The notes under the pieces: model-generated | The model's database searches: none | What the model was told of the DNA's origin: nothing | What the model saw: the letters and a program-made list of their open reading frames with translations, nothing else | Position numbers and translations under genes: made by a program | In this document: positions 1 to 25,136 of the stretch, in pieces | Position numbering within the stretch: position 1 is the first letter of the stretch | How the letters are laid out: each line of letters starts with the position of its first letter | NCBI GenBank assembly: GCA_020725605.1 | Contig: DYER01000099.1 | Span: forward strand, 1-46,034 | Length of the DNA: 46,034 nt | Direction: 5' to 3' | From: Ammonifex sp. | GTDB taxonomy: Bacteria; Bacillota; Desulfotomaculia; Desulfotomaculales; DYER01

Positions 1-345
1 TTCCACCCCGCCGGCCACGTAGATGCGACCCACGCCCGCCCGGATGTAAGCGGCGGCCAGGTTCACGGCGCTCGACCCGGACCCGCACTGCCGGTCCACG
101 GTCAGGCCGGGCACGCCGATCGGCAGGCCGGCCTTGAGGAGCGCCAGGCGCGCCATGCAACCGGGGGCCCCCAGGCAGTGGCCGAAGATAACCTCGTCGA
201 TCTGGCCCGGGTCGGCAAGCCCGCTGCGCCGGACCACCTCCCGGATCACCAGTGCGGCGCAGTCTTCGGGCGGCACGTCCCGCAGGGCCCCGTTCTCCCG
301 GGCAATAGGTGTTCTCACGGCGCCGACTATCACGGCCTCGGGCAT
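1..345 (-). CDS. Acetyl-CoA acetyltransferase / thiolase, N-terminal part (runs off left edge)
   Basis: Reverse strand from ATG at 345 (RBS aaggagg upstream) reads MPEAVIVGAVRTPIARENGALRDVPPEDCAALVIREVVRRSGL...GLTVDRQCGSGSSAVNLAAAYIRAGVGRIYVAGGVE: typical thiolase N-terminus with the Cys in RQCGSG. Absent from the ORF track because it is truncated. Confidence 0.93.
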   Translation of the reverse strand, partial: MPEAVIVGAVRTPIARENGALRDVPPEDCAALVIREVVRRSGLADPGQIDEVIFGHCLGAPGCMARLALLKAGLPIGVPGLTVDRQCGSGSSAVNLAAAYIRAGVGRIYVAGGVE

Positions 346-388
346 TTGGAGTTCCTCCTTTTACCGGGTGTTTGGTGGTGAAATATGC

Positions 389-474
389 ATCCGACCGCCA
401 CGTGTTTAACATTGAAACCTTGGGCGGCGCTCTTGCGTTTCACCGCTGTGACCTCCACGGTGCGGTCTTTTCGG
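389..474. repeat. Dispersed repeat copy R1
   Basis: atccgaccgccacgtgtttaacattgaaacc...gtttcaccg...gtcttttcgg; aligns with 8142-8227. Confidence 0.7.
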
Positions 475-482
475 CCTTTCTT

Positions 483-498
483 TGCAACATCCGTGCCA
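483..498 (-). promoter_or_regulatory. Sigma-54 promoter P0 for the thiolase
   Basis: Reverse complement of 481-499 is cTGGCACGGATGTTGCAAA, an exact match to TGGCACG-N4-TTGCA (GG-N10-GC), 139 bp upstream of the thiolase ATG. Confidence 0.8.
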
Positions 499-609
499 GA
501 GCACTCCCTCATGGGCGGTCGGCGGGCGAAGCGCCGGGCCGGAGGTTGGGTTGCGGTGGCGATTCCGGGTGCTGAGCGCAGCGGACGTCTTCGGGGATGG
601 GTTCCCCGG

Positions 610-629
610 GCGGTGCGTAGCGGCACCGC
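610..629. promoter_or_regulatory. Dyad U1, putative enhancer (UAS) of a sigma-54 activator
   Basis: GCGGTG-CGTAGCGG-CACCGC. Confidence 0.6.
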
Positions 630-684
630 GGGAGGAAGGAAGGATCGTGGCGGAAAAAGGCACTGCCGTGGACCGAAGGACCGT

Positions 685-704
685 CCGGTGACGAAGAGCA
701 CCGC
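685..704. promoter_or_regulatory. Dyad U2, putative UAS
   Basis: CCGGTG-ACGAAGAG-CACCGC; starts 21 bp before U3. Confidence 0.6.
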
Positions 705-705
705 C

Positions 706-725
706 GCGGTGTGAGCATGCACCAT
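706..725. promoter_or_regulatory. Dyad U3, putative UAS
   Basis: GCGGTG-TGAGCATG-CACCAT; starts 71 bp before the -24 GG of P1. Confidence 0.6.
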
Positions 726-775
726 TTGGGGAGCTTACCGTGCGGGGCGAAGGGGTACCCCGTGGTTATGAAAGT

Positions 776-791
776 TGGTACAAGGATTGCA
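776..791 (+). promoter_or_regulatory. Sigma-54 promoter P1
   Basis: TTGGTACAAGGATTGCAATT; GG 777-778, N10, GC 789-790. Confidence 0.75.
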
Positions 792-1310
792 ATTAGTTAA
801 TGTACGACACTGCGGAAAAGTAGAAAACCAACGGACAGAAGTAGTTGCTTTTAGCAAGTCTCAAGGGGAACGGACGGATCTAGTTCGTGGGGCCCATCGG
901 TCTTGCATCCCGCACAAGATGTGGGTGATAGGAGGAATTGACGCTGGGGGTGCCGCACGCAGAGTTTGTTGGCTGTGGCCAAGGACACGAGCCGCTATAG
1001 GGTCGCGCTACAGGCAAGCGTCTGCGGGCATAGGGTGCAGCGAAACGAGGCAGGGCCCGTGTGGACGACGTAGAGGAACTCGTAAGAGGGGGTAGGAGTC
1101 CGCGGCGGTGGAATTCACGTTTCTCTAATGACGTGGTACGTGGCACGGGAGTGGGGTTCGGTGCTTTTGTGATGCCCGGAGCGAGGCCGAGGTTAGAACT
1201 CACGGCGTTTCTCTAGAATGAAGGGACCTAACTCGAACGGCGGTTGAATGGGGAAGTCCAAACAAACCCAATTCCTGTGGGAGAAGTTGACAATCCAGGA
1301 GGTGGAACCC

Positions 1311-3908
1311 GTGACAGAGAGCCTCTATTTTGAGCAGCTGGAGGCCTGCTGGCGGCGCGTCTGGCCTCATCCGTCTCTCCCGGAGCGGCCTGTCAAACCC
1401 TTCGGGGACCTTCCGATATGCCATTACGTAACCGAATACGCGCGGCGCCGGCCGGAAAGGGATTGTCTCATCTATTACGGACGGCGACTCTCCTACCGGG
1501 AAGTCGACGAATTGAGCAATAGATTCGCCAATTTCCTGCTGGACATGGGCCTAAAGAAGGGCGACAGAGTGGCGCTGATGCTCCCCAACTGCCCGCAGTT
1601 CTACATCGGGTATCTCGGAACGCTGAAGGCGGGCGGCGTCTGCGTGTTGCTGAATCCCCTGTTGAAGGAACTGGACCTGGAGTCCCTGGTGCAGGAAGCG
1701 CAACCGGTAGCCGTCCTGACGCTGGACCAGCTTTACCCCCTGGTGAGCGGGGTGGTGGCGAGGGTTAACCCCTCCGCCCGCGTGATCCCAACAAGCTTTG
1801 CGGAATTCCTGCCGCCCGAGCCCGAGATACCGTTGCATCCCACCATGCAGGGGGCGGCACCCCTTGGGGAAACCTCGGCCTACCTGTCCTCGCTTTTAGA
1901 GAAGAGTTCGGCGGCCCCGCCGCCGGTGCAAATCTCACCCGAGGACTACGCCACCATGAACTTTACCGGCGGAACCACCGGGTTACCCAAGGCCGTGCTG
2001 CACCGCCACCGCAACATCATCTACACAGCGGCCTGTATCTACACCTACAATTACGCTCATTTGCTTGTGGAAGACCATTCCGGAAGACCCGTAGATTTTC
2101 AGGGTTTCCTGGACGCAATATACCGGGACGAGGTGGCCATGGCGGCCATGCCGATTTTCTGGATCGCCGGCAAAGACGTCGGTGTGGACGGCCCGCTTTT
2201 CGGCGGCTCCACCATCGTTCCCATCACGCGCTGGGACCCTGCGGTGGCCATGGAAGCCATTGATAGGTACCGGGTAACCACCATGTACGCACCGTTTGAT
2301 CTTTACTGGGAGATCCTGACCCATCCGGCGCAGGACCGGTACAGCCTGAAAAGTTTGCGACTCTGCGTGGGGTCGAGCTTTATAAAGGGTCTCAGCCGGG
2401 AACTGCGGGAAAGGTGGCGTCTCCGCACGGGAGCCATTCTCCGCGAGGCGGCCTACGGCCTAACCGAGACGCACACCTGCGACACCATGACGGGGGGCTT
2501 TCACAGGGGGGACCTCGACATCGAGCGGAGCCAGACCTACGGTGGGGCGTTCTGCGGTATTCCCCAGCCGGGAACGCTCGTCAAGATCGTGGACCCGGAG
2601 AGCGGAGAGCTGTTGGGTCCCGGCCAGAAGGGTGAGATCGTGATCAAGTCGCCCTCGGTTGTCGAGGGGTATCTTAATAAGCCCGAGGAAACGGCCAAAT
2701 CCTTCCGCGAGGGCTGGCTCCACACCGGGGATATCGGCATGTACGACGAGGACGGCTTTTTGTACTACATTTCCCGAACCAAGTACATGCTCAAGGTTTC
2801 GGGCGTCAGCGTCTACCCTACCCAGATTGAGATGCTCCTGCTGAAACACCCCGCGATTGAACTGGTGGGTGTGATCGGGGCGGATGACCCGGTAAAGGGG
2901 CAGGTACCCATCGCCTACGTAAAGCTGAAGGAAGGTTTTCCCGCGGTAACCGAAGCCGAGTTAATCGACTGGTGCCGCAAGAATATGGCGGCCTACAACG
3001 TACCTCAGCGGATCATCATCGAAAGTTCGCTGCCGTTGTCGGCCACGGGCAAGGTTATCAGAGAAGAGCTGGTGCGCGACTACGCCCGCAGGTTCGCGGC
3101 TGGATGTTCACCATCGGAGGAGAAACGAGGAGGCCAATTCAGGAGCTATCGCAATCTCTCGTTGGAATGGCGTGGATCCGTTCTGTACATCACCATCAAC
3201 CGTCCGGGAGCCTTGAACGCCCTCAATCGGGAGACGCTGGAAGAGATTATCGCGGTGTTGCGCACCGAGGCGCGGGAGGCGCGGGTGATCGTTTTTACCG
3301 GGGCGGGGAACAAGGCTTTCGTAGGCGGGTCGGACATACGCGAGATGGACGGAATGGACGCGCTCAAGTTCCGGGAGTACATGCGCGTATTCGCGGAAGC
3401 CATAGGGCTGATAAGAAGTATAGAGAAGCCCACCATCGCCGCCGTGAACGGTGTGGCTTTCGGGGGCGGCAATGCGCTGGCTCTTTCGTGCGACTTCGTG
3501 GTAGCAGCCGAGGGAGCCCAGTTCGGCCAGCAGGAAATCAACGTCGGCATTTTCGGTGGCGCGAGCCTTCTCACTGCTTTGGTGGGTAGGATACGGGCGG
3601 CGGACGTTGTCTTTACGGGCAGGGCACTCGACGCGCGCGAAGCCCATGCCTGGGGACTGGTGACCCGGGTGGTGCCGGCGGACGCACTGGCCGAAGAAGT
3701 GGCGAGGCTGGCGGAACATCTTGCCAGCCGCCCCCCCAAAGCCCTGGCGCTGGCCAAGCAAGCGATCAATTACGCCATGGCGGTGCCCCCGGATGCGGCC
3801 GCAACTTACGAGAGAGAACTCATCAGTTTGTGCTTTGACACTCGAGATCAGAAGGAGGGGATGCGTGCCTTCCTGGAGCGCAGGAAACCGGTATTCACGG
3901 GTGAGTAG
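1311..3908 (+). CDS. Bifunctional AMP-forming acyl-CoA ligase / enoyl-CoA hydratase-isomerase fusion
   Basis: Single ORF (track 1248-3908; GTG 1311 has RBS aggaggtg). N-part has MNFTGGTTGLPKAVLHRH and the LHTGDIGMYDEDGFLYYISRTKYMLKVSG ligase motifs; C-part ITINRPGALNALNRETL...AAVNGVAFGGGNALALSCDFVVAAEGAQFGQQEINVGIFGG is crotonase-fold. Confidence 0.92.
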   Translation: MTESLYFEQLEACWRRVWPHPSLPERPVKPFGDLPICHYVTEYARRRPERDCLIYYGRRLSYREVDELSNRFANFLLDMGLKKGDRVALMLPNCPQFYIGYLGTLKAGGVCVLLNPLLKELDLESLVQEAQPVAVLTLDQLYPLVSGVVARVNPSARVIPTSFAEFLPPEPEIPLHPTMQGAAPLGETSAYLSSLLEKSSAAPPPVQISPEDYATMNFTGGTTGLPKAVLHRHRNIIYTAACIYTYNYAHLLVEDHSGRPVDFQGFLDAIYRDEVAMAAMPIFWIAGKDVGVDGPLFGGSTIVPITRWDPAVAMEAIDRYRVTTMYAPFDLYWEILTHPAQDRYSLKSLRLCVGSSFIKGLSRELRERWRLRTGAILREAAYGLTETHTCDTMTGGFHRGDLDIERSQTYGGAFCGIPQPGTLVKIVDPESGELLGPGQKGEIVIKSPSVVEGYLNKPEETAKSFREGWLHTGDIGMYDEDGFLYYISRTKYMLKVSGVSVYPTQIEMLLLKHPAIELVGVIGADDPVKGQVPIAYVKLKEGFPAVTEAELIDWCRKNMAAYNVPQRIIIESSLPLSATGKVIREELVRDYARRFAAGCSPSEEKRGGQFRSYRNLSLEWRGSVLYITINRPGALNALNRETLEEIIAVLRTEAREARVIVFTGAGNKAFVGGSDIREMDGMDALKFREYMRVFAEAIGLIRSIEKPTIAAVNGVAFGGGNALALSCDFVVAAEGAQFGQQEINVGIFGGASLLTALVGRIRAADVVFTGRALDAREAHAWGLVTRVVPADALAEEVARLAEHLASRPPKALALAKQAINYAMAVPPDAAATYERELISLCFDTRDQKEGMRAFLERRKPVFTGE

Positions 3909-3977
3909 TGCAGCCGACTGTTACTGTTTTCTTTCATTATACAGTAGCTATGGCAATCAGATGAGGGGGTGTACGGC

Positions 3978-4181
3978 ATGTCTCCCGTCATTAGAATGTC
4001 GGGGAATGACTTCGTCATTCTGGCTATGATTGTGGTTGCTACGCTTATTATCTATGTTCCCTGGCACTTCGATATAAAGATAAAGGGTCTGTGCCTGATG
4101 GGCTGGATGCTAATCGGGTTGTACTTTCTTGCCCCGGTAGTTTCCTTGATCCTCATCGGTAGAGAAAAGGAAAGACGCTAA
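3978..4181 (+). CDS. Small two-TM membrane protein, possible symporter accessory subunit
   Basis: MSPVIRMSGNDFVILAMIVVATLIIYVPWHFDIKIKGLCLMGWMLIGLYFLAPVVSLILIGREKERR; RBS gaggggg; directly precedes an SSS symporter. Confidence 0.7.
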   Translation: MSPVIRMSGNDFVILAMIVVATLIIYVPWHFDIKIKGLCLMGWMLIGLYFLAPVVSLILIGREKERR

Positions 4182-4247
4182 TGGCTTGCTGCCGCCGACT
4201 GCAAAGGGCGCGCTTGAAAATGATGAAGGTGGAAAGGGGATTGGGTT

Positions 4248-5705
4248 GTGGCGAAAGGCGTTGAGCTGAGCATTGTAATCCTGTACTTCTTGCTATGCAT
4301 CGGAATAGGCGTTTGGTCGCGAAGGTTAGTGGCAAACAGGGCTGAGGAATACTGGGCTGCCGGCAGAAGTATTGGGACATTTCTTAACTCATGGGCTATC
4401 CTAGCTGCCCTCACCAGTGGAGGGTCCACGCTGGCTGCGCCAGGTACAGCTTATAAGCTGGGTGTGCCTTACGGGTCTAGCCTGGTTGCGGGAGCAATCT
4501 GTGGCTTTTCGTTGGCTTCGGTATTGGTAGCCAGGTATTTGCGAAATGCCGAGGTATACACGGTTCCAGAATTTCTGGGTAAACGCTATAACGATAATAA
4601 AACGATTGGGATACTTGTACCAATAATTGTTCTCCTTACGAACGGGATGTATATGGTGGCGCAGCTCAAGGCTACGGGGTTAGTTATTAGCTGGTTGACG
4701 GGACTGCCGTACGTCTACGGATTGGTTATTGGAACAGTCACCTTTATCCTGTATGTTTCCATCGGTGGCATGTGGGCAGTGACCTACACTGACGTCATAC
4801 AGGGAATGCTTTTAACCTTTGTCACCATAGCCTTAACAGTTACAGCGGTAGCGAGGTTCGGGCTGGGAAATATGGCTACTCACGTTGTCACAGATGCGCC
4901 TCAGCTGGGCTCGATCGCGGCAGCTTTACCCTATTCCTCCTACGTGGGTGGTTTTATAAGTTGGGCGCTGGCCGTTTGCGTGCTGCCACATTTGATGATG
5001 CGCGTGTTTACTGCTCGGAACGTAAGGTCCGCGCGTCTTTCACTTAATTATGGGATGTTAATCTATGCGTTTGTAATGGCCTCTGCTGTATTGCTTGCGA
5101 TGGCATGTAGCTTTCTGCCGTCGGACGTGCTACGTCGTGTGCCGGCCGACCAGTACCTACTGAACTTGGGCGACATGCTCTTTGGCCCGATAATGAAGGG
5201 TGTTCTGGTAGCCGGGGTTGCGGCTGCGGTAATGTCGACTGCAAGCGGTTTGTTACTGGCATGCAGTGCCGCTTTTACCAATGATCTTTACAAGCAATAC
5301 ATCCGGCCTAACACATCTGAGCGCGAGGTAGTTCGTGTAGCTCTTGTTACCACCTGGGTAGTTGGCGTAGCCACATTGATCCTGTCCATTAAGCCTCCGC
5401 CGTTCCTGGTGGTGCTGTATACGGCGGCCGTGGCCTTTCTAGTGAGTTCTTTGTTTGCACCCCTTATCCTGGGAATTTGGTGGCGCAGGATGAATACCGC
5501 TGGTGCAATCGCAGGGTTGATAGTTGGAGCTGTTACCTTCAGTATATGCTTCTTTGGATTAGATATGCCGGCATCAACAGAGATTCTGGTTGCGCTACCC
5601 CTATCACTTGTGGCAGCCGTGGTTGCCAGTCTGTGTACGAAACCGCCTGCACCCGAGGAGATATCTTTCTTGAGGAAAATTCACGAGGCAGGATTAGGTG
5701 GTTGA
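4248..5705 (+). CDS. Sodium:solute symporter (SSS) family transporter
   Basis: 485 aa multi-TM protein: LCIGIGVWSRRLVANRAEEYWAAGRSIGTFLNSWAILAALTSGGSTLAAPGTAYKLG...SIGGMWAVTYTDVIQGMLL. Confidence 0.92.
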   Translation: MAKGVELSIVILYFLLCIGIGVWSRRLVANRAEEYWAAGRSIGTFLNSWAILAALTSGGSTLAAPGTAYKLGVPYGSSLVAGAICGFSLASVLVARYLRNAEVYTVPEFLGKRYNDNKTIGILVPIIVLLTNGMYMVAQLKATGLVISWLTGLPYVYGLVIGTVTFILYVSIGGMWAVTYTDVIQGMLLTFVTIALTVTAVARFGLGNMATHVVTDAPQLGSIAAALPYSSYVGGFISWALAVCVLPHLMMRVFTARNVRSARLSLNYGMLIYAFVMASAVLLAMACSFLPSDVLRRVPADQYLLNLGDMLFGPIMKGVLVAGVAAAVMSTASGLLLACSAAFTNDLYKQYIRPNTSEREVVRVALVTTWVVGVATLILSIKPPPFLVVLYTAAVAFLVSSLFAPLILGIWWRRMNTAGAIAGLIVGAVTFSICFFGLDMPASTEILVALPLSLVAAVVASLCTKPPAPEEISFLRKIHEAGLGG

Positions 5706-5869
5706 AAACCTATCTTTCCAGCCCTTAGCTGAAGAGGTCACGAACCTCTGGCACACGGAACGGAGCGTGGCTGCCCCAGCTTCCTATCGTAAATGCGGTT
5801 CCGGGCATTGCTTAGTACGGCTCCACATGAGTTGCTATCCCTTTTTGGCTGGCGTGTGTCCCGCTCGCT

Positions 5870-6840
5870 CCCGTGCTCCGTAGACCGGGTTACGGAGAAC
5901 ATGACTATGACGAAACGGCAAATGAATACAGGCTTAACAAGAGCTTCAGCGAGTACTGGGATAGGATTAGGGAATCTAAAGCTACCTGCGCTATACTATT
6001 GGAGGTTGTTATCCCTTTGCTAATGAGCAGGCGCGTGAGCCCATATGACCGAGAAAATACCTTAAACAAGGCGTACATGCAACCATTACCTAAATACTAC
6101 CACCAAGTAGCTGAGAGATTTGGATTCGATTTTGTACTTGCTGGATACGGGCAAACGGAAGCGGGAAATGCGTTCTTTGCTATAATTGATGAGCTACCTG
6201 GAGAGATGGGAACACCGGAAGAGCTATAAGAGGGCTTGTCAAAGGATGAGATCAGGGAGCCGGCAAGGGTGGATGGTTACTTGTAACAGGCGATTCGGCC
6301 CTCAAAAAGGGGTTTGCGGGGAAACCGTCGCACTGGTAGACGCCATAGTAGTAGATGACGGTGATCAGGAACTCGGTGTGGGCCAGGTTGGTGAGATTTG
6401 TTTTGGACCAAAGTTGCCATGGAGTATGTTGAATACTTTAGAAGCATTGATACACCGGCTGAGGCTTTTCGAAATTGTTGGTTTCATTCAGGGGACGTTG
6501 GTTAGAGGGACGAGGAAGTGTTGTAGATCGGAAAGGGTGGGTCATACGGCGTCGGGGGGAAGAATATATCATCATATCAAGTGGAGGACTTCGTTAGCAA
6601 TCACCCCAAAGTTAAAGTGTCTGCCGCATTTCTGGTACCGACGAAGGTGGGCGGTGAGGATGAGGTCGCAGTAGTTGTTGCAGTAAATGGGGGGTGTTGG
6701 CCGAGATGAGTTGAGAAAGCGGCTTGAAATAGAAATGTCGGGGTTTATGGTACAAACTACATAAAGCATGGATGATTTACCAAGAACTCCAACGAACAAG
6801 ATAGAGAAGTTGTACTTCGGAAGCGTATGGTTAAAGAGCC
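5870..6840 (+). pseudogene. Decayed AMP-forming acyl-CoA synthetase
   Basis: Ligase-like peptides scattered over frames with stops/frameshifts: MQPLPKYYHQVAERFGFDFVLAGYGQTEAGNAFFAIIDELPGEMGTPEEL / RGLSKDEIREPARVDGYL / DAIVVDDGDQELGVGQVGEICF / NCWFHSGDVG / ISSYQVEDFVSNHPKVKVSAAFLVPTKVGGEDEVAVVVAVNGG. Confidence 0.85.
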
Positions 6841-6863
6841 GGGGCTAAGAGGGAGGAAGGGGC

Positions 6864-7349
6864 ATGAGTAAGCGAGGCGTAGGAGATATATATTTCGAGG
6901 ATTTAGAAATCGGTAGGACGTTTAGCTCCCCCGAAGTAACGATAACGGCTTGTGAGGTCGATATTTACTCTTTTCTGACGGGGCATGCCCACCCGATAGA
7001 TAACGCACGCAACATTCACATCAACTCGGATTACGCCAGGAGTCTGGGCTTGAAGGACCGGGTGGTTCCGGGGTTGCAGTTGGTGTCCTACACCACAAAG
7101 CTGGCTGGGTTAATTGGGCTGTGGGGAAGGGTGCTACTTTTTCTAGGCCTGGACAGCATCAGATTCCTGCACCCCGTTTTTCCCGATGACAGGGTGCGCC
7201 TTGACATAGAAGTCGTTGACAGGAGGGAGGCGGACAAGTGGCCAGACCGGGGCGTCGTGACCTTTAGGTACGTCATGAAGAACCAGGAAGACAAGGTGGT
7301 ACTGACTGGCGAAGCCTCTTATCAGTTCTTGAAGCGGGTAGCTGGATAG
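6864..7349 (+). CDS. MaoC-like hotdog-fold dehydratase
   Basis: 161 aa; YFEDLEIGRTFSSPEVTITACEVDIYSFLTGHAHPIDNARNIHINSDYARSLGLKDRVVPGLQLVSY pattern of MaoC/R-hydratase proteins. Confidence 0.85.
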   Translation: MSKRGVGDIYFEDLEIGRTFSSPEVTITACEVDIYSFLTGHAHPIDNARNIHINSDYARSLGLKDRVVPGLQLVSYTTKLAGLIGLWGRVLLFLGLDSIRFLHPVFPDDRVRLDIEVVDRREADKWPDRGVVTFRYVMKNQEDKVVLTGEASYQFLKRVAG

Positions 7350-7734
7350 CCGGTTCTCGATAATAGCTCTCTTCAAAAAAACATTGGCCAGAACATATCA
7401 CGAATATGATACCATTTGGCAGAAGGTTTGTTCCAGGAATTAAGTAACTGGCCGTTTCGGGTTTTCCGGCGAGTTTGGTAAGCGGTCGGAGCTAGAGAAT
7501 TTCTTTTGTGAACACGGAAATGACTTGGCGAAACAGTCTTGAGTGCCGGAAAGAAATACAAGGATTGCACTTGCGAAGTGATGGAAGAAGTAGCCCAAAA
7601 ACCAGCTTGGTTTTTCCTAGTATACCTCAGCGTTACATCGAGATCCGGCTTTTGGCGACCCGACCCTAAGATAAAGGAGTGTTCTCTTTACCAGTTAATC
7701 AAAGAAAAGGCGCCGTCCCGACATTTCTTTCCCC

Positions 7735-8150
7735 TGCTTTTTCGACCAGGAAATCTTCAGCCGCGTGTTCCCGGGGGGCCATCCCCTGGTGCTGATCAAG
7801 AAATATGTGACTTCTCCTTCGTGAACGAGCATGCCGTACGTTACTACCACGCGGAGCTCGGGTGCCCGAGCTTTCCGCCCGAGGTGCTCTTTCGGGTGCT
7901 GTTCCTGGAGGTGTGGGCCAGCCTTTCGGCCCCCTGGGCGTGCCGGGAGCCGAATACAACGTGGTCTACCGCTGGTTTTGCGGCCTGGGCTGGGAGGACC
8001 CGTGGCCGGCGACACCACCCTGGTTGTCTTGAGAAGGCCCCTGGGCGAGGACGGCTTCCGGCGCCGGTTCGAGCGGGTGGTGCGGCAGGCAAAAAGGAGA
8101 AGGGCCTTTTACGGGGTAAGTGGGCCATTGCGGACGGCGCAAATCCGACC
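7735..8150 (+). mobile_element. Decayed IS1182-like transposase N-terminal remnant
   Basis: Frameshifted peptides FFDQEIFSRVFPGGHPLVLIKKY / DFSFVNEHAVRYYHAELGCPSFPPEVLFRVLFLEVW / EYNVVYRWFCGLGWEDPVAGDTTLVVLRRPLGEDGFRRRFERVVRQAK resemble DUF772-type IS1182 transposases. Confidence 0.72.
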
Positions 8151-8227
8151 GCCCTGTGTTTAATAATGAAACTTTGCGCGGGGCTTTTGTGTTTCACCGT
8201 TTAACCTGCGGGGTGTTGTCTTTTCGG
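8142..8227. repeat. Dispersed repeat copy R2
   Basis: atccgaccgccctgtgtttaataatgaaact...gtttcaccg...gtcttttcgg; aligns with 389-474, roughly 75-80% identity by eye. Confidence 0.7.
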
Positions 8228-8238
8228 TCGTGGCCCCG

Positions 8239-8254
8239 TGGTACGAAAATTGCA
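8239..8254 (+). promoter_or_regulatory. Sigma-54 promoter P2 of the liv operon
   Basis: GTGGTACGAAAATTGCAATT; GG 8240-8241, GC 8252-8253; 86 bp before the livH ATG. Confidence 0.75.
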
Positions 8255-8325
8255 ATTACGAAAAACTGCCAGAAAACTGCAAGTAGCATGAATCCCACAC
8301 AACACGAGGGGCGGTCGCCAAAGGT

Positions 8326-9189
8326 ATGGAGGTATTCGTTCAGCAGGTCTTCAACGGGATCATGCTGGGGAGCACCTATGCCGTGGTGGCGGTAGGGCTC
8401 ACCCTGGTTTTCGGCATTCTGCACATTCCCAATTTTGCCCACGGCCACTTTTACATGCTCGGAGCGTACCTTACCTTTTTCCTTGTGACCTCCTGGAAGA
8501 TCGATTTCTGGCCGGCTCTCGTGCTGTCCGCCGTGCTGCTGGCGCTGCTCGGGGTCCTGGTGGAACGGATCGTTTTCCGGCCCATGAGGGACCAGCCGCA
8601 CGTCAACGCGTTCATTTCCGCCATCGGGACCCTGATGTTTCTGGAAGCCTTTGTTATGGTCGTTTGGGGACCGCAGGGGCACCGCATTCCAAACCCGTAC
8701 CCCGAAACGGTCAACCTCCTGGGAGTCGTTACCACACAGCAGCGCCTGCTGGTAATCGCCGCCGCCGTGGTCCTGATTGTGCTGTTGCACCTGTTCATCA
8801 AGAAGACCGTTATGGGCGCGACCATCGAGGCCGTGGCCCAGAACCGCGAAGGGGCCATGCTTGTGGGGATAAACGTCGATCGCGTGTCTTCCGTAACCTT
8901 TGCCGTATCCGCCGCCACCGCCGCGATCGCGGCTTCCATGGTGGCCCCCATCTTCATGGTCTCCCCCACCATGGGCGCCCTGCTGGGAATGAAGGCCTTC
9001 ATAGTGGTCATCCTCGGAGGCCTGGGCAGCGTTCCGGGTGCCATTGTCGGAGGGTATATTCTGGGCATCGTCGAGGCCCTGGGCGGGGGATACATCTCGG
9101 CCGACTACAAGGACGTTTTCGCCTTCGGAGCCCTCATCCTGATCCTGGCCATTAAGCCTACCGGCCTTTTCGGAAAGGAGGTCGGCTAG
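8326..9189 (+). CDS. livH: Branched-chain amino acid-type ABC transporter permease LivH
   Basis: 287 aa; VQQVFNGIMLGSTYAVVAVGLTLVFGILHIPNFAHGHFYMLGAY. Confidence 0.93.
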   Translation: MEVFVQQVFNGIMLGSTYAVVAVGLTLVFGILHIPNFAHGHFYMLGAYLTFFLVTSWKIDFWPALVLSAVLLALLGVLVERIVFRPMRDQPHVNAFISAIGTLMFLEAFVMVVWGPQGHRIPNPYPETVNLLGVVTTQQRLLVIAAAVVLIVLLHLFIKKTVMGATIEAVAQNREGAMLVGINVDRVSSVTFAVSAATAAIAASMVAPIFMVSPTMGALLGMKAFIVVILGGLGSVPGAIVGGYILGIVEALGGGYISADYKDVFAFGALILILAIKPTGLFGKEVG

Positions 9190-9191
9190 CG

Positions 9192-10199
9192 GTGAGGCGC
9201 GGGCAATTCTTTCGGGAAAAATGGCCGTACCTGATACTGCTGGTCTTTGCACTGGCGGTTCCGGCGCTTTTTCCGAGCCGCTACGTGCTACAGGTAATTA
9301 CCATGAGCTGCGTCTTCGCCATTGCCACCCTGGGTCTTAACCTTATCCTGGGCTATACCGGCCAGGTTTCCCTGGCACACGCGGGCTTCTTTGCCATCGG
9401 AGCCTACGGGGTGGCAATGATGACGAAGGCGGGGCTTTCTTTCTGGCTTGCTCTTCCGCTTTCCGCCCTCCTCGCCGCCGCGGTGAGCTTTTTCGTCGGG
9501 CTGCCCACGCTCCGCACGCGGGGATCGTATTTTGCCATTGCCACCCTCTGCTTCGGCGTGATCGTCTCGATTGTGGCGGGTAGCTGGTTCAGCCTCACGG
9601 GCGGCCACACCGGAATCGTCGGTATCCCGTTGCCGAATGCGATTCCTTTCCCCCTGGTGGGGGAGATCGGGTTCCATTCCAAGGCCGCGCAGTATTACCT
9701 CGTGCTGGGGTTCTTGCTGTTAACCCTTTTCGTCATGCATCGCCTGGTTAACTCCGTACAGGGGCTGAGCTTCGTGGCCGTGCGGAACAACGAGGTTCTG
9801 GCCGGTGCCGTGGGCATCAACGCCTTTGCCACGAAGCTGCTCTCCTTTGTGATCGCCAGCTTTTTTGCGGGCATCGCAGGCGGCATTTACGCGAGTCTCA
9901 TGAGAAGCGTCAGCCCGGACGTCGCCTCGATCAACCTCATGTTTAACTGGGTGGTGTACCTTTTGCTTGGGGGCGCGGGCACCCTCGCGGGACCCGTGGT
10001 CGGCACCCTGGCCATCTCGGCACTCACGGAGTCCCTCCAATTCCTGGCCGAGTACAACCTCCTCGTCTTTGGCGCCCTGCTGGTCGCGGCAATGGTTTAT
10101 TGCCCCCGGGGGCTCGTGGGGCTAGTGGAGGCCGGGGGGAAGAAGGTCAGGGTCTACTATCGCAGGCAGGTGGGTGTGAGAAGTGATCTTGAGGGTTGA
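9192..10199 (+). CDS. livM: Branched-chain amino acid-type ABC transporter permease LivM
   Basis: FAIATLGLNLILGYTGQVSLAHAGFFAIGAYGVAM; GTG start; adjacent to livH. Confidence 0.93.
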   Translation: MRRGQFFREKWPYLILLVFALAVPALFPSRYVLQVITMSCVFAIATLGLNLILGYTGQVSLAHAGFFAIGAYGVAMMTKAGLSFWLALPLSALLAAAVSFFVGLPTLRTRGSYFAIATLCFGVIVSIVAGSWFSLTGGHTGIVGIPLPNAIPFPLVGEIGFHSKAAQYYLVLGFLLLTLFVMHRLVNSVQGLSFVAVRNNEVLAGAVGINAFATKLLSFVIASFFAGIAGGIYASLMRSVSPDVASINLMFNWVVYLLLGGAGTLAGPVVGTLAISALTESLQFLAEYNLLVFGALLVAAMVYCPRGLVGLVEAGGKKVRVYYRRQVGVRSDLEG

Positions 10200-10947
10200 A
10201 AGGCTTACGAGGAGATTTGGGGGGCTGCTGGCCGTCAACGAGGTAAGTTTTCACGTCGAAAAGGGCGAAATACTCGCAATTATCGGTCCCAACGGGGCCG
10301 GCAAGACCACGGTCTTTAACCTCATCAGCGGCTTGCTTCACCCCACCTCTGGCCAGATTTACCTGGAAGGAGTGCCGATCGCCGGTCTCAGGCCGCACCA
10401 GATCGCCAGAAAGGGCATTGCCCGGACCTTCCAGACCACCGCCCTCTTTAACCAGCTCCGGGTGATCGACAACCTGGTCGTGGCCCACAAGCTCCGCACA
10501 ACGCATGGCCTGCTGGACACCCTGTTTCGTACGCGGCGCTGGCGGGCGGACCGGGAGAAGAGCCTTGCCAGGGCGGTGGAAGTTCTGGAGTTCGTGGGGC
10601 TGAGGGAAAAGGCCCTCCACCCGGTGTCCACCCTATCCCAGGAGGAACAGAAGCGCCTGGCCATAGGCGTCGCCCTGGCCACAGAGCCGAAGATCGTATT
10701 GCTCGACGAGCCCACCGCGGGACTCATCCAGGACGAAACCGATGGGATCATGACGTTGATTAAAAAGCTCAAAGCCGCAGGGGTTACGGTGTGCGTAATA
10801 GAGCACAAGATGCGCCTGATCATGGACCTGGCAGAGCGGATTATCGTTCTGAACTACGGTAACAAGATAGCCGAAGGGACGCCGGAGGAAATAAGCAGGA
10901 ACGACGCGGTGGTCCAGGCCTACCTGGGAGGGGAGTACGCTGCTTAA
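10183..10947 (+). CDS. livG: ABC transporter ATP-binding protein LivG
   Basis: Walker A GPNGAGKTTVFN, LSQEEQKRLAIGVALATEPKIVLLDEPTAGL; overlaps livM end. Confidence 0.93.
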   Translation: MILRVERLTRRFGGLLAVNEVSFHVEKGEILAIIGPNGAGKTTVFNLISGLLHPTSGQIYLEGVPIAGLRPHQIARKGIARTFQTTALFNQLRVIDNLVVAHKLRTTHGLLDTLFRTRRWRADREKSLARAVEVLEFVGLREKALHPVSTLSQEEQKRLAIGVALATEPKIVLLDEPTAGLIQDETDGIMTLIKKLKAAGVTVCVIEHKMRLIMDLAERIIVLNYGNKIAEGTPEEISRNDAVVQAYLGGEYAA

Positions 10948-10957
10948 GCTGACCGAT

Positions 10958-11647
10958 GTGACCACCACGATCGGGGGATTTCGAGTCATTCACGGAGTCT
11001 GTCTGGAGATCCGCAAAGGAGAGTTCGTTGCGCTGTTGGGCAGCAACGGCGCGGGCAAGACGACCTTGTTTCGAACCGTCGCCGGGGTGCTGAAGCCCTG
11101 CCGGGGGACGATAGAGTTTCAGGGGAAGCAGATTCACAGGCTTTCTCCTGACCGGATCGTCTCCCTGGGATTGTCGCTCTGCCCCGAGGGGCGCCAGCTT
11201 TTTCCCCAGCTTTCGGTCTACAAGAATCTCCTCCTGGGGGCGTACACGCGGCGTAAGGAAATGTCCAGGGTTCGCAAGACCATGGAGTGGGTGTACGAAC
11301 TGTTTCCGGTGCTCAAGGAAAGGCGAAATCAGCCCGCCGGAACCCTGAGCGGCGGGGAACAGCAAATGCTGGCCATCGGCCGTGCGTTGATGTCCGAGCC
11401 GGAAATGTTACTTTTGGACGAGCCGACCATGGGGCTGGCGCCGCTGGTGGTGCGGAGAATAGCGGAGGTGATCAAAGAGATCAACAGGGCGGGAACGACG
11501 GTGTTCCTGTCGGAGCAAAACGCCAATATAGCGCTCATGATCACCGAACGGGGTTACGTCCTGGAGAACGGCAGGATCGTCCTGGAGGGCCCGAGCCCGG
11601 AACTCCTGGAAAACGCGACGGTGAAACGGGCCTATCTGGGCGCCTGA
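10958..11647 (+). CDS. livF: ABC transporter ATP-binding protein LivF
   Basis: GSNGAGKTTLFRT, LSGGEQQMLAIGRALMSEPEMLLLDEPTMGLAP; true start may be CTG at 10940 (LLKLTDVTTTIGG). Confidence 0.92.
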   Translation: MTTTIGGFRVIHGVCLEIRKGEFVALLGSNGAGKTTLFRTVAGVLKPCRGTIEFQGKQIHRLSPDRIVSLGLSLCPEGRQLFPQLSVYKNLLLGAYTRRKEMSRVRKTMEWVYELFPVLKERRNQPAGTLSGGEQQMLAIGRALMSEPEMLLLDEPTMGLAPLVVRRIAEVIKEINRAGTTVFLSEQNANIALMITERGYVLENGRIVLEGPSPELLENATVKRAYLGA

Positions 11648-11740
11648 GGCCCACACCGACCAGGGGAGGAGGGGGAATGACGCCGGTCGTGAGGTTTGGA
11701 GGCTGCGACAGGTAGAAAGAGGAAGAAGGGAGGTTAAAGA

Positions 11741-13024
11741 ATGAGAAAACTCAAAACGTTCGGGCCGGCGCTGGTGGTCGTGGCCGCACTCCTGTTGGTG
11801 GTGGCGGGCTGCGCCGGGCAGGGGGGCCGGCAGACCGCGAAGGAAATCGTCATCGGCTTCAACGGGCCCCTGAGCGGGCCGGCCGCGGAGTACGGCCGGG
11901 ACTGCGCCAACGGCGTCGAGATGGCCATCAACGAAATCAACGAGGCGGGCGGCATCACGGTGGGGGGGCAAAAGTACGTCTTCCGGCTGGAAAAGCTCGA
12001 CCACCGGGCCGACCCCTCCCAGGCCGTGGCCAACGCCCGGCGGTTCCGCGACCAGTTTAAGGCGCGGGTGATCTTCGACTGCGTGTTCAACTGCATCGCG
12101 CCGCAGCTGGAGATCAACCAGGAGAAGGGCAACGAGTTCCTGATGATGGCCTGGACCTCCACTCCTAAGCTGGTCGAGCTGGGGAACAAGCTGGCCGTGG
12201 CCATTCCGCCGCCCTTCACGGCGTACATGAAGGCCTTCATGGACATGGCGTGGCAGGAGGGCTACCGCAAGGTGGCCATGGTCGTTACCGTCGGGGCCTA
12301 CGGCGACGAGTGGCGCTCGATATTCAAGGAGGAGTGGCAGAAGAGGGGCGGGGTCATTACGGCCGACCAGCCGGCCAATTACTACGCGCAGACCGATTTC
12401 TCGGCCCAGCTCACCGCGGCCCTGGCGACCAAGCCCGACGCCCTGCTCATCGGCGGGCCCTCCAGCACGACGGCGCTGGTCATCGAGCAGGCCCGGAACC
12501 TCGGGTTCAAGGGCGGCTTCATCCTGGTGGACCAGGCCAAGATGGACTACATCGTAGACGTCGTCTTCAAGGGGAAGACGGACCAGATGGGCACCACCTT
12601 TGGCGTCGGCGCCATCGCCCAGTATCCGTCGCCCGCGGCCAAGTCCTTCAACGAGAAGTACCAGGCCAAGTACCAGGTGCACAACACCTGGGAGGCGGCG
12701 GGCAACTACACGGCCATGCACGCCCTGGCGAAGGCGATGGTGGCGGCGGGCACCGTGGAGGACGTCGCGGCCATCAGGGCCGCCCTGGAGAAGGTTTTTC
12801 CCATGACGGGCGACAAGTATCCGGCGGAGATCCTCGGCATTCACAAGAACGGCCAGATGCTGATGATGGCCCTCCCGCAGGCGATCAAGGGAGGAAAATA
12901 CACGGATCCCTGGCTCATGGTTTACTGGACCAGAACCCAAGAGGGCTTCGAACGGGTCAAGGAAAAACTGACTATGCCTCAGTTGGCCAGGTGGGTGCCG
13001 CTCGAAGGTTATTACGTTGACTGA
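11741..13024 (+). CDS. ABC transporter substrate-binding lipoprotein (LivJ/K-like)
   Basis: Signal with lipobox VVAGCAGQ; EIVIGFNGPLSGPAAEYGRDCANGVEMAINEINEAGGI. Confidence 0.92.
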   Translation: MRKLKTFGPALVVVAALLLVVAGCAGQGGRQTAKEIVIGFNGPLSGPAAEYGRDCANGVEMAINEINEAGGITVGGQKYVFRLEKLDHRADPSQAVANARRFRDQFKARVIFDCVFNCIAPQLEINQEKGNEFLMMAWTSTPKLVELGNKLAVAIPPPFTAYMKAFMDMAWQEGYRKVAMVVTVGAYGDEWRSIFKEEWQKRGGVITADQPANYYAQTDFSAQLTAALATKPDALLIGGPSSTTALVIEQARNLGFKGGFILVDQAKMDYIVDVVFKGKTDQMGTTFGVGAIAQYPSPAAKSFNEKYQAKYQVHNTWEAAGNYTAMHALAKAMVAAGTVEDVAAIRAALEKVFPMTGDKYPAEILGIHKNGQMLMMALPQAIKGGKYTDPWLMVYWTRTQEGFERVKEKLTMPQLARWVPLEGYYVD

Positions 13025-13046
13025 CTTTGGTATTCCGCAAAAGTTA

Positions 13047-13078
13047 GGCAGTGGTGCAAATCCGCACCACTGCCTTTT
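13047..13078 (+). terminator. Rho-independent terminator-like hairpin after the substrate-binding protein gene
   Basis: GGCAGTGGTGC-AAATCC-GCACCACTGCC-TTTT, 11-bp perfect stem. Confidence 0.65.
13051..13070. promoter_or_regulatory. Dyad V1, putative UAS (inside the terminator-like stem)
   Basis: GTGGTG-CAAATCCG-CACCAC. Confidence 0.5.
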
Positions 13079-13134
13079 GCGATTGTGTCGGTGTGCCGGT
13101 GCTTGAGGAGGTGAGGGCCGGCGAAGAACCCAAT

Positions 13135-13154
13135 GTGGTGTATTCCTACACCAC
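13135..13154. promoter_or_regulatory. Dyad V2, putative UAS
   Basis: GTGGTG-TATTCCTA-CACCAC; starts 21 bp before V3. Confidence 0.62.
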
Positions 13155-13155
13155 T

Positions 13156-13175
13156 GCGGTGTCTAACTGCACCAT
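13156..13175. promoter_or_regulatory. Dyad V3, putative UAS
   Basis: GCGGTG-TCTAACTG-CACCAT; starts 72 bp before the -24 GG of P3. Confidence 0.6.
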
Positions 13176-13226
13176 AGTCATCGGTCTGCGTGCCGGGTGC
13201 CCGCCCGGAGTCGGGGAACCGCTTTC

Positions 13227-13242
13227 TGGTACGGTTATTGCA
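13227..13242 (+). promoter_or_regulatory. Sigma-54 promoter P3
   Basis: TCTGGTACGGTTATTGCATA; GG 13228-13229, GC 13240-13241; 30 bp before the GTG start. Confidence 0.78.
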
Positions 13243-13270
13243 TATAAAACGATACTGAGAGGTGGTAGGG

Positions 13271-14902
<1,632 letters not shown>

Positions 14903-14905
14903 AAG

Positions 14906-15769
14906 GTGAACGTGGAAAAGATTTGCGTGGTGGGGGCCGGCAACATGGGGCACCAGATCGCCCTGTGTGCCGCCCTGGCCGGCTACCGGGTCAGGTGCAC
15001 CGACACGGATCCCCGGGCACTGGAGAAGGCCGAGCGCTTTGCGGACACGTACCTGCCCGAGAGGGTGGCCAAGGGCAAGCTGACGGAGGAGGCCGCCCGC
15101 CAGGCCCGGGCCAACCTCACCTTTACGCCGGGCCTGGAAGAGGCGGCCTCCGACGCGGACTTCGTCATCGAGGCCATCATTGAGAATCTCGAGGCCAAGC
15201 GCCGGCTGTTCGCCCGCCTGGACGAGATCTGCCCGGCCCACGCCATCCTGGCGACCAACAGTTCCTTTATCGTGAGCTCGCGCATTGCCGACGTGACCCG
15301 GCGGCCCGAAAAGGTGTGCAACATGCACTTCTTCAACCCGGCCCTGGTGATGAAACTGGTCGAAGTGGTCAAGGGCCCGCACGTGGCGGATGAGACCGCG
15401 GCCGTCACCGTGGAAGTGGCCAAGAGAATGGGCAAGGTACCGGTGGTTCTCAAAAAAGAGATCTACGGGTTCCTGGTCAACCGCATTCTGGCCGCCATCA
15501 ACGCCGAAGCCCTGTACCTGTACGATATGGGAATCGCCTCCTACGAAGACATCGACAACGCCGTCGTGCTGGCACTGGGCCACCCCATGGGGCCGTTCCG
15601 GCTCATGGACCTGACGGGCATCGACCTGGCCTACCACATCGGCATGGAGCGGTATCGGGAAACCGGCAACCCGGCGGACAGGCCCTCGCCGGTGGTGGTT
15701 GAGAAGTACGTCAGGGGAGAATGGGGCCGGAAGACGGGCAAGGGCTTTTACGAGTACGGCGAGAAGTGA
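14906..15769 (+). CDS. 3-hydroxyacyl-CoA (3-hydroxybutyryl-CoA) dehydrogenase
   Basis: VVGAGNMGHQIALCAALAGYRV, ATNSSFIVSSRIADVTRRPEKVCNMHFFNPALVMKLVEVV. Confidence 0.94.
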   Translation: MNVEKICVVGAGNMGHQIALCAALAGYRVRCTDTDPRALEKAERFADTYLPERVAKGKLTEEAARQARANLTFTPGLEEAASDADFVIEAIIENLEAKRRLFARLDEICPAHAILATNSSFIVSSRIADVTRRPEKVCNMHFFNPALVMKLVEVVKGPHVADETAAVTVEVAKRMGKVPVVLKKEIYGFLVNRILAAINAEALYLYDMGIASYEDIDNAVVLALGHPMGPFRLMDLTGIDLAYHIGMERYRETGNPADRPSPVVVEKYVRGEWGRKTGKGFYEYGEK

Positions 15770-15780
15770 GGTGTTGGAGT

Positions 15781-16920: not shown

Positions 16921-16943
16921 TCCGACCAGGGGGGAGACATAGG

Positions 16944-17717
16944 GTGGAATACACCAAGCTGGAAGTCAGGAAAGGCGAGGGCTACGTGGTGGCGGCCATA
17001 AACAACCCGCCGGCCAACGCCCTGGGACAGAAAGTACTGGCGGAGCTCAACGCCCTGCTGGACGCCTGTCTCGGGGACGATGAGGTAAGGGCTCTGGTCA
17101 TAACCGGGTCCGGACCGAAACTGTTCTCGGCCGGGGCCGACATCAACGAATTCGCCGCCCTCAGGGCGGGTCAGAAACCGGAAATCAGCGGGCACGACGT
17201 TTTCGCCAGGATCGAAAACTATCCCAAACCGGTGATTGCGGCCCTCCAGGGCAGCGCCTTCGGGGGCGGCACCGAACTGGCCATCAGCTGCCACCTGCGC
17301 ATCATGGCGGCCAACGCCCAGATCGGCCTGCCCGAGGTCAAGCTGGGCATCATCCCGGGGTGGGGAGGCACCCAGCGGTTACCCCGGCTGATCGGCAAGA
17401 CCAAGGCCCTCGAGGTCATGCTCACAGGCGACCCGCTGAGCGCCGAAGAAGCCCTGCGCTGCGGCCTGGTGAACCGGGTGGTGCCGCAGGAGCAGGTGCT
17501 TCCCGAGGCGGAAGCCCTGGCCGCGCGGCTGGCCAGGGGGGCTCCCCTGGCCATCAGGGAGATCCTGAAGGCGGTGACGCGGGGTCTCGAGACCACCCTT
17601 GAAGAGGGCATCAAGATCGAGCAGGCGGGATCGGCGGTGGTCTTTGCGAGCGAGGACGCCGTGGAGGGAGCTACGGCGTTCTTCCAGAAAAGGGCGCCGA
17701 ATTTCAAGGGGAGATAG
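16944..17717 (+). CDS. Enoyl-CoA hydratase/isomerase
   Basis: PVIAALQGSAFGGGTELAISCHLRIMAANAQIGLPEVKLGIIPGWGGTQRLPRLIG; GTG 16944 with RBS ggggaga. Confidence 0.94.
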   Translation: MEYTKLEVRKGEGYVVAAINNPPANALGQKVLAELNALLDACLGDDEVRALVITGSGPKLFSAGADINEFAALRAGQKPEISGHDVFARIENYPKPVIAALQGSAFGGGTELAISCHLRIMAANAQIGLPEVKLGIIPGWGGTQRLPRLIGKTKALEVMLTGDPLSAEEALRCGLVNRVVPQEQVLPEAEALAARLARGAPLAIREILKAVTRGLETTLEEGIKIEQAGSAVVFASEDAVEGATAFFQKRAPNFKGR

Positions 17718-17808
17718 CCGGCTGAACAATCCTGAAAGGCGAAGAGCAGAGAACCGGTGCTCAGAGGTGAGTATAAGGAACCTCGCTGCCAAGAGTGGGG
17801 GGAGCAAA

Positions 17809-19476: not shown

Positions 19477-19478
19477 AC

Positions 19479-20276: not shown

Positions 20277-20297
20277 AGAGCGAAGAGGTTTCAGATA

Positions 20298-22849: not shown

Positions 22850-23069
22850 AATGCCCTCCGGGTCAAGCGGGTACCTCAAGGAGAAGCTGGGGAGGCCAGA
22901 GGTTATTTCCATAACGCCCGTTCGGCGCTCGACGAGGAGAGGGCAATCTCGTTGCCGTGGGGTTGCAGTCAGCAGTCGGTATTATTGGGGCGGCGGATTT
23001 CCTCGAAAAGGGCCGGAGCGATGATAAGTGCGGCGGTTTACGGGACGCTTAACGAAGGGAGGAATACCG

Positions 23070-25136
23070 GTGGTCAGGGTGAGGCACGTAATGAGTCGGG
23101 CCTTCGTGATTCTTACAGAAGAGGTCGCAATCCGGGAGGCCGCGGCCAACTTCCAGGAAAAGCCCATCCGGCGCATCGTGGTTGTAGACAGGGGTCAGCC
23201 CGAAACGGTTGTGGGCATTATTTCCACCGAATGCTTCCTCAAGGCCATAACTGAGGGACTGGACTTCCGTGCCCCCGTGGGGAACATCATGTACCGGGAG
23301 TTCTGCACCGTCCATGAGGAAGCCCCCGTGGAAGAGCTTCCCCGCGAGACGGTACATACGGTGGTGGTCCTGAACGGAGCGGGGCATGTGGCCGGCATTT
23401 TAACCCGCAGTGACCTGATGGCCATCCACGGCGGAAACTGCTGGCTACGCAACGAGCAGGTCAAGGCGATCTTCGACGCACTGCCCAACGGAGTGGTGTT
23501 CACCGATAACCGGGGGACCATACTGCTGGTCAATAAGGCGGCCGAGGAGATGCTCTGCGAGGACGCGGGAAAGCTTGACGGGTTGTCCTATTGGGACGTG
23601 TTTCAGGACGAACACCTGTCTGAAGTGTTGGATACCGGCGTGGCGGACAGGAATCGAAGGCAAATCATAAACGGGGTAGTGGTTCTCCGCAACATCTTCC
23701 CCAGTGTCAAGGACGGCAAGACATGCGGAGCCCTGGTTACCTTCCAGGACGTCTCGGAACTCGAAATGCTGGCCGACGAGCTGAACCGCGTCAAGGAGCT
23801 AAATCGTGACCTGGAGGGTATTATCGAATCCTCCTTCGACGGCATAGTGGTGGCCGATGGCTCGGGAAGGGTGTTGAAGTGCAACCGGAGCTTCACCGGC
23901 CTGGCCCGTTGCCTGCCGGGAAACCAGTTTAGCGAAACGGTTGTCGAACCGGTTATCTCGAGGGCTCTGAAAAGGGGCAAGACGGTCACAATTAAGAAAA
24001 CCGTGGCCGGTAACAGGGAGCTGCTTCTGACGGCCAACCCCATTTTCGGCGACAATCAGGCCATCGAAAGGGTGGTCTGCAATATCCGGGATATGACCGA
24101 GCTGGAATCGCTCAGGAGGGAAATGGAGCAAAGCAAGGATCTGTCCATCCGCTATTGCGAAGAACTGGCAACCTTGCGCAGTCTCCAGCTGGAACTGGCC
24201 AATCTGGTGGTTTCCAGTCCGGTTATGAAAAGGGTCGTTGAACAGGCGATACGCGTTGCGTCCGTGGACTCGACCGTGCTGATCACGGGCGAAACCGGCG
24301 TCGGCAAGGAGGTTATCGCCAAGCTGATTCACCAGCACAGCCCTCGTAAGGACAAGCCGTTTATCCAGATAAACTGCGGGGCAATTCCCGAGGCCTTGAT
24401 CGAGTCCGAGCTGTTCGGCTACGAAAAGGGGGCCTTTACGGGTGCCAGCAGGACCGGCAAGGTTGGCCTGCTGGAGGCCGCCAGTCACGGGACCCTTCTT
24501 CTGGACGAAATAGGCGAACTTCCGCTGCCCCTGCAGGTCAAGCTACTGCGAGTGTTGCAGGAGCAACAAATCATAAGAGTCGGCAGCGTCAGGCCGACCA
24601 AAGTAGACGTAAGGATTATCGCGGTTACAAACCGGAACCTGGAAAAGATGGTCGGAGAAGGTCGCTTTAGGGCCGACCTGTTCTACCGGCTGAACGTCGT
24701 ACCCATTTACGTCCCGCCGCTACGTGAGAGGAGAGAGGATATAATTTCGCTGGCGCAGTATTTCGTGGAGAGATACAACAAGAAGTACGGCCTGAACAAA
24801 AGGCTCGCTCCGGCTGCGCTTGCGGTGCTGGAGAGGTACAACTGGCCGGGCAACGTACGCGAACTGGAGAACGTGATCGAAAGAATGGTTATCATGAGCG
24901 GCGGGCAGACCATTGAGCCGCACGAGGTACTGGGATACCTGCAGGAGAAAGCCAATCCGGTGATGGGGGTGGAGGATATCATCCCCTTGAGAGAGGCCAG
25001 CGAAATGGTCGAAAAGCAGCTCATCCTGAAGGCCCTTGCCAGATTCAAAAGTACCCGCAAGGCGGCACGCGTTCTGGGAGTCGACCATTCCACCATAGTC
25101 CGCAAGCTGCTCAAATACCAGCTTCAAAGCGGTTAA
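23070..25136 (+). CDS. Sigma-54-dependent transcriptional activator (CBS pair, PAS, PAS, AAA+, Fis-type HTH)
   Basis: Walker A GETGVGKE, ESELFGYEKGAFTGA, NWPGNVRELENVIERMVIM, KSTRKAARVLGVDHSTIVRKLLKYQL; N-terminal VRHVMSRAFVILTEEVAIREAAANFQEKPIRRIVVVD CBS; GTG 23070 after gggagg. Confidence 0.93.
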   Translation: MVRVRHVMSRAFVILTEEVAIREAAANFQEKPIRRIVVVDRGQPETVVGIISTECFLKAITEGLDFRAPVGNIMYREFCTVHEEAPVEELPRETVHTVVVLNGAGHVAGILTRSDLMAIHGGNCWLRNEQVKAIFDALPNGVVFTDNRGTILLVNKAAEEMLCEDAGKLDGLSYWDVFQDEHLSEVLDTGVADRNRRQIINGVVVLRNIFPSVKDGKTCGALVTFQDVSELEMLADELNRVKELNRDLEGIIESSFDGIVVADGSGRVLKCNRSFTGLARCLPGNQFSETVVEPVISRALKRGKTVTIKKTVAGNRELLLTANPIFGDNQAIERVVCNIRDMTELESLRREMEQSKDLSIRYCEELATLRSLQLELANLVVSSPVMKRVVEQAIRVASVDSTVLITGETGVGKEVIAKLIHQHSPRKDKPFIQINCGAIPEALIESELFGYEKGAFTGASRTGKVGLLEAASHGTLLLDEIGELPLPLQVKLLRVLQEQQIIRVGSVRPTKVDVRIIAVTNRNLEKMVGEGRFRADLFYRLNVVPIYVPPLRERREDIISLAQYFVERYNKKYGLNKRLAPAALAVLERYNWPGNVRELENVIERMVIMSGGQTIEPHEVLGYLQEKANPVMGVEDIIPLREASEMVEKQLILKALARFKSTRKAARVLGVDHSTIVRKLLKYQLQSG

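Follow-up and report, generated by a model that had tools for sequence, protein, structure and literature searches.

Organization of the Divergent Locus

The window, that is, the whole 46,034-nt stretch of DNA that was analysed, covers positions 1-46034 of contig C96 in a draft genome of 2.2 Mb (115 contigs, 84.8% complete), which contains one rpoN (467-aa frame) and about 13 genes for sigma-54 activators; no relatives of the same genus or family are present among the listed comparison genomes. The contig end cuts a minus-strand thiolase gene, leaving its first 115 codons, and the TIGR01930 score falls under the whole-protein cut-off because of this truncation; the ATG at 345 is preceded by an AGGAGGA ribosome site. 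On the opposite strand, the first gene downstream of promoter P1 encodes a fusion of an acyl-CoA ligase, of the fatty-acid type, and an enoyl-CoA hydratase (Table 1). This fusion was not found in the 99 relatives searched, where the best relatives align to the ligase part alone (47% identity), and a scan for the fusion protein yielded no named relative. The window also encodes a sodium symporter and branched-chain amino acid ABC genes and, in 13262-21878, a ligase, a hydroxyacyl-CoA dehydrogenase, an acyl-CoA dehydrogenase, a hydratase, a second ligase, and an HpaB-like gene. These are followed by the gene of a CBS-PAS sigma-54 activator and by a second HpaB-like gene, whose product matches the dehydratase/isomerase of gamma-aminobutyrate metabolism 1u8v (E 2.4e-229) and vinylacetyl-CoA isomerase. 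Broken acyl-CoA-ligase-like remnants at 5900-6710 (e.g., AERFGFDFVLAGYGQTEAGN in frame 5831-6229) form an apparent pseudogene, and frameshifted transposase-like fragments (NEHAVRYYHAELGCPSFPPEVLFRVLFLEVW, recognised by eye) occupy 7700-8140, upstream of the promoter at 8239.

Table 1. Genes, predicted sigma-54 sites, and enhancer dyads of the window, with the related elements on C20 (dyad distances from the -24 element).
Feature	Position	Strand	Basis
Thiolase (acetyl-CoA acyltransferase)	1..345	-	Pfam Thiolase_N 9.5e-25; NCBIfam TIGR01930 4.7e-30
Thiolase sigma-54 promoter TGGCACGGATGTTGCA	483..498	-	Exact consensus TGGCACG-N4-TTGCW, 16 nt
Enhancer dyad 1 (single) GGTGCGTAGCGGCACC	612..627	.	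Motif GGTGY-N6-RCACC
Enhancer dyad 2 (first of tandem pair) GGTGACGAAGAGCACC	687..702	.	One base off motif
Enhancer dyad 3 (second of tandem pair) GGTGTGAGCATGCACC	708..723	.	21 bp from dyad 2
Apparent ancestral P1 relic TGGTTATGAAAGTTGG	764..779	+	Aligned with intact promoters of paralogous copies
Sigma-54 promoter P1 TGGTACAAGGATTGCA	776..791	+	Dyads at 52/73/148 bp
Acyl-CoA ligase/enoyl-CoA hydratase fusion	1311..3908	+	Pfam AMP-binding 7.4e-76, ECH_1 7.2e-59
Sigma-54 site TGGTACGAAAATTGCA	8239..8254	+	Upstream of branched-chain amino acid ABC permeases
Second enhancer triplet	13053-13068, 13137-13152, 13158-13173	.	Same motif, 21-bp pair
Sigma-54 promoter TGGTACGGTTATTGCA	13227..13242	+	Upstream of ligase/beta-oxidation/HpaB genes 13262-21878; dyads at 53/74/158 bp
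Likely cognate activator, CBS-PAS-AAA+(GAFTGA)-HTH_50	23028..25136	+	Pfam; GAFTGA, Walker A; motif covariation
Third triplet	C20:18893-18982		Upstream of promoter C20:18840-18825 (short-chain dehydrogenase); dyads at 52/73/126 bp

Sigma-54 Sites on Both Strands

The original prediction placed an exact sigma-54 consensus, reading into the thiolase, on the minus strand at 484-498, and P1, facing the ligase-hydratase fusion, at 777-790. Both sites were confirmed, with their extents corrected to 498-483 and 776-791, and both show in a sequence test the GG at -24 and the GC at -12 of the 16-nt pattern TGGCAC-N5-TTGCA. Among 2000 dinucleotide shuffles of 346-1310, a single one contains the exact consensus, which arises on average 0.015 times per shuffled 46-kb window. 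P1 departs from the strict consensus by two mismatches, a level at which the window holds 9 sites vs. 7.4 expected and shows no enrichment, so its support comes mainly from the dyads and the context. Four sites of the window score at least as high as P1 (498-, 776+, 8239+, and 13227+), against 0.155 expected, and all of them fall in the pathway region. The looser pattern TGGYRYR-N4-TTGCW has 29 matches in the genome and 5 in the reversed control. Transcription is predicted to start at about 472 from the thiolase promoter, with a leader of about 127 nt, and at about 802 from P1, with a leader of about 509 nt. The P1 leader (802-1310) contains no recognisable gene and no Rfam match (1-14000 searched), and its folding is not better than that of shuffles (z 0.61).

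Enhancer Dyads and Their Arrangement

Three enhancer dyads had been proposed within 610-725, between both promoters, and they are found there as copies of one motif, which was derived by eye from the palindromes preceding P1 and the 13227 promoter. Six exact copies of GGTGY-N6-RCACC occur in the window, where 0.28 are expected and none of 100 shuffles reaches six, and shuffling the intergenic region 2000 times never produced two or more exact dyads or a tandem pair. In the whole genome, the exact motif has 56 copies vs. 7 in the reversed control and, thus, lone copies are non-diagnostic. Tandem dyads 21 bp apart occupy exactly three places in the genome and none in the control, all three preceding sigma-54 sites (776, 13227, and C20:18840-18825). 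Only four of the 29 sigma-54-like sites of the genome carry the triplet, namely P1, the 13227 and C20 promoters, and the thiolase promoter; no GGTG dyads were found in the 300 bp upstream of the 8239-8254 site. The exact tandem pattern was present in 2 of the 99 relatives (G057 and G074).

The dyads lie between the two promoters, at roughly 50-250 bp from each of them, as expected for a shared enhancer, the distances from the thiolase promoter being 113/188/209 bp. At the homologous loci of the activator family, the unit typically comprises a pair 19-22 bp apart and a single dyad some 45-84 bp off, and the single dyad is usually promoter-proximal (e.g., 68/147/166, 72/154/173, and 76/121/142). 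Viewed from the thiolase promoter, the dyads follow this usual order, with the single dyad near and the pair far, whereas the order is reversed for P1, 13227, and C20; the triplet is found in both orientations relative to the promoter across family loci. Strong dyads flanked by two clear, divergent sigma-54 sites were met in the window and at no other family locus examined; a further divergent pair (L262) has weak dyads.

Paralogous Copies of the Control Region

The region 395-777 has a paralogue on C20 (L074:9436-9084; 64% over 385 bp, E 4e-30), which precedes a gene for a PHB-depolymerase-like esterase. This copy, which is nearly whole, retains an intact forward promoter (TGGCACGAAAATTGCG); its dyads are degraded in part, and the -12 element of its divergent site is gone (TGGCGTAGATGCTCCA). 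No divergent gene was found there among the families searched, and the short-chain dehydrogenase gene on that side is not divergent. Of a partial copy at 8143-8255, which includes the sigma-54 site at 8239 ahead of the ABC permease genes, only the left 85 bp and the forward promoter remain, without dyads or minus-strand promoter; the control region is, thus, a regulatory unit that has been duplicated. P1 lies 12 bp beyond the worn forward promoter at 764-779, at the 52-bp spacing, as at 13227 and C20, which suggests that both this spacing and the thiolase promoter may have been kept by selection. The block GGAAAA-GGCACTGCCGTG at 650-671 is among the best conserved with respect to the C20 copy, although it lies outside the three dyads. 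The repeat 393-475/8146-8228 was considered as a transposon relic and rejected, since it belongs to the paralogous control region.

The Candidate Activator and the Residue-to-Base Covariation

The product of 23028-25136 combines an AAA+ domain (PF00158, 1.8e-71) carrying Walker A at residue 421 and GAFTGA at residue 468 with an HTH_50 domain (6.1e-15), the composition of a sigma-54 enhancer-binding protein, and its recognition helix reads VDHSTIVRKL. Its match to NF041552 (PrdR; E 7.5e-141) reaches 470.3 bits, under the equivalog cut-off of 795, and, thus, the protein is not PrdR itself; TGT/ACA sites of the PrdR type were not recovered, the top de novo dyad around the His-helix homologues being GGTG-N8-CACC. 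Homologues are common within the order. In four genomes of one genus, whose activator has the helix ISHSTLLRK, the same dyads (21-bp pairs plus one) precede a sigma-54 promoter beside the activator gene. On these comparisons, the CBS-PAS activator likely binds the GGTG dyads.

About 80 further homologous loci were added (L119-L132 and L199-L278 being the loci considered). Exact dyads near homologues have the half-site GGTG when the helix contains H-S-T, GATG with Q-S-T (19/19), and GTTG with A-S-T (6/6); the 12 GGTG counts take in the window's own dyads, with the shared triplet counted twice, one PST match is the coding sequence of the helix itself, and one RSS-assigned locus also holds an H-S-T activator. 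Since the first count partly fixed the motif, a second one took in all 256 half-sites; GGTG (His), GATG (Gln), and GTTG (Ala) were again the top half-sites of their classes and did not come up in the downstream controls. In a tree that excludes the HTH, the protein of the window falls within a supported all-His group of 10, and a His protein nested among Ala and Gln proteins (L249) also has GGTG. Residue and base agree at 16 of 16 scorable loci, but phylogenetically independent His/G pairs number two and, thus, the covariation test is phylogenetically weak. It is reasonably likely that, in this CBS/PAS HTH_50 family, the second base of the half-site is determined by the residue preceding S-T (GGTG for His, GATG for Gln, GTTG for Ala), and that a conserved three-dyad unit (a pair 19-22 bp apart plus one) reads it and is able to serve one promoter, whichever way it faces, or a divergent pair simultaneously. 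This covariation is the freshest result and the part that specialists might not expect. If the residue code is true, binding sites and, hence, regulons would be predictable from sequence for many such activators, and activator-target assignment would become testable in many anaerobes, whose sigma-54 activators are abundant and for the most part still to be assigned. The homologues of the HTT type may use GGAA (four dyads in two loci). Occurrences of GGTGGACCAGTCCACC near several activator homologues were rejected as dyads, since they are the coding sequence of the helix VDQST.

A Probable Divergent Control Region and Its Alternatives

The 965 bp separating the thiolase and ligase-hydratase genes probably form a divergent sigma-54 control region, in which one activator would serve both promoters and a pathway regulon. 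The PrdR-like CBS-PAS protein would bind the dyads at 612-723 as dimers and could assemble one hexamer, which would loop to the sigma-54 polymerase at P1 (rightward) and at the thiolase promoter (leftward) and open both. In line with AAA+ proteins of this kind, the three dyads would seat three dimers, that is, one hexamer. The same activator may act through the triplets at 13227, ahead of the ligase, hydroxyacyl-CoA dehydrogenase, acyl-CoA dehydrogenase, hydratase, and HpaB-like genes, and at C20:18840-18825; with matching triplets under the same activator, the thiolase, the ligases, and the beta-oxidation enzymes would form one regulon. Since three dyads are also present at other acyl-CoA pathway genes, a single activator with its gene nearby probably turns on the genes to either side. 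The proposed linkage of the thiolase to the rest of the pathway stands at the sequence level, because both sites face the genes named in the original prediction and the dyad motif is shared with the pathway promoters 13227 and C20. We infer activator binding, looping, the use of a common oligomer by both promoters, the inducing signal, and the transcription starts. That one oligomer serves both promoters is plausible, because the family unit consists of three dyads and the triplet is found facing its promoter either way. Points against this explanation are the distance of about 22 kb between the activator gene and the divergent region, the long P1 leader, which is an odd feature, and the weaker sigma-54 match of P1.

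P1 shares its 52/73 spacing with two one-sided promoters, at which the triplet evidently acts on a single promoter, while the thiolase promoter stands at 113/188/209 bp; the cluster may, thus, be adjusted chiefly to P1. The same spacing, together with the number of sigma-54 activators in the genome, speaks for an arrangement in which the dyads serve P1 alone and the thiolase promoter, although real, is driven by another activator through unrecognised sites. This seems unlikely, since an unsystematic inspection of 499-611 gave no other clear dyad, the thiolase promoter sees the dyads in the order met by most homologous promoters, and its distances fall inside the 100-250 bp range given for most Clostridiales sites in PMC6615313. 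More doubtful still is a reading of the minus-strand site as a chance match, with the thiolase transcribed from a different promoter. In its favour, the thiolase is truncated and has no orthologous locus among the genomes compared, and a paralogous copy exists without a working divergent site. However, an exact match is expected about once in 2000 for the region, its orientation and distance are right, no sigma-70-like promoter was found in 300-1350, and the copy that lost the site is the one with no divergent gene among the families searched.

The binding protein might also be the PrpR-type activator C20:20429-22354 and not the CBS-PAS activator of the window, since its gene adjoins the triplet C20:18893-18982 within an acyl-CoA gene cluster. 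This is the least probable of the alternatives, and a rather improbable one, because tandem GGTG dyads occur at none of 12 homologue loci (12-20 kb around each), whereas the His-helix homologues of the window activator do carry GGTG dyads. With the CBS-PAS protein as the preferred activator of both promoters, a putative activator, binding motif, and regulon can be assigned to an acyl-CoA pathway of an uncultured lineage, and the thiolase on the opposite strand is probably co-regulated with that pathway.

Comparison with Known Systems

The divergent layout itself is a well-supported but ordinary case of an arrangement known elsewhere. In Desulfovibrio vulgaris, the divergent sigma-54 operons orp1 and orp2, known for promoters with a shared enhancer, are controlled by the activator DVU2106 (PMC3897727) and resemble the locus in having two divergent sigma-54 promoters, palindromic sites for one activator, an activator gene in the same cluster, and joint activation, which is predicted here. 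However, the two orp promoter regions have separate sites, at -131 and -88, and their DNA is bent by IHF (PMC3897727), whereas the window has a three-dyad cluster between its promoters and genes of acyl-CoA metabolism. RpoN holoenzyme binding in the divergent spacers hycA/hypA and ygeV/ygeW of Escherichia coli (PMC8743547) is comparable to the sigma-54 sites predicted in the spacer of the window.

Regarding the Clostridiales, PMC6615313 describes targets that often have several sites; the range that it gives for them includes the thiolase promoter and, partly, P1. PrdR and related Clostridiales CBS/PAS activators show sequence kinship with the protein 23028-25136 and share multiple dyads per target, but the sites of PrdR are reported as TGT-N10-12-ACA (PMC6615313), in contrast with the GGTG-N8-CACC dyads of the window.

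FhlA controls E. coli hyc/hyp, which are probably shared-enhancer divergent sigma-54 promoters, but FhlA-type sites are TGT/ACA repeats, and both pathway and activator class are unrelated to those of the window. NtrC sites have the form GCACC-N5-GGTGC, and the 21-bp tandem pair yields a similar RCACC-N5-GGTGY register; however, the isolated dyads of the window are solely GGTGY-N6-RCACC and the linked activator is a one-component CBS-PAS protein. When 85,462 genomes were scanned for a tandem pair accompanied by a promoter, 10 Proteobacterial matches came up; several lie inside open frames, some resemble NtrC promoters, and none was informative.
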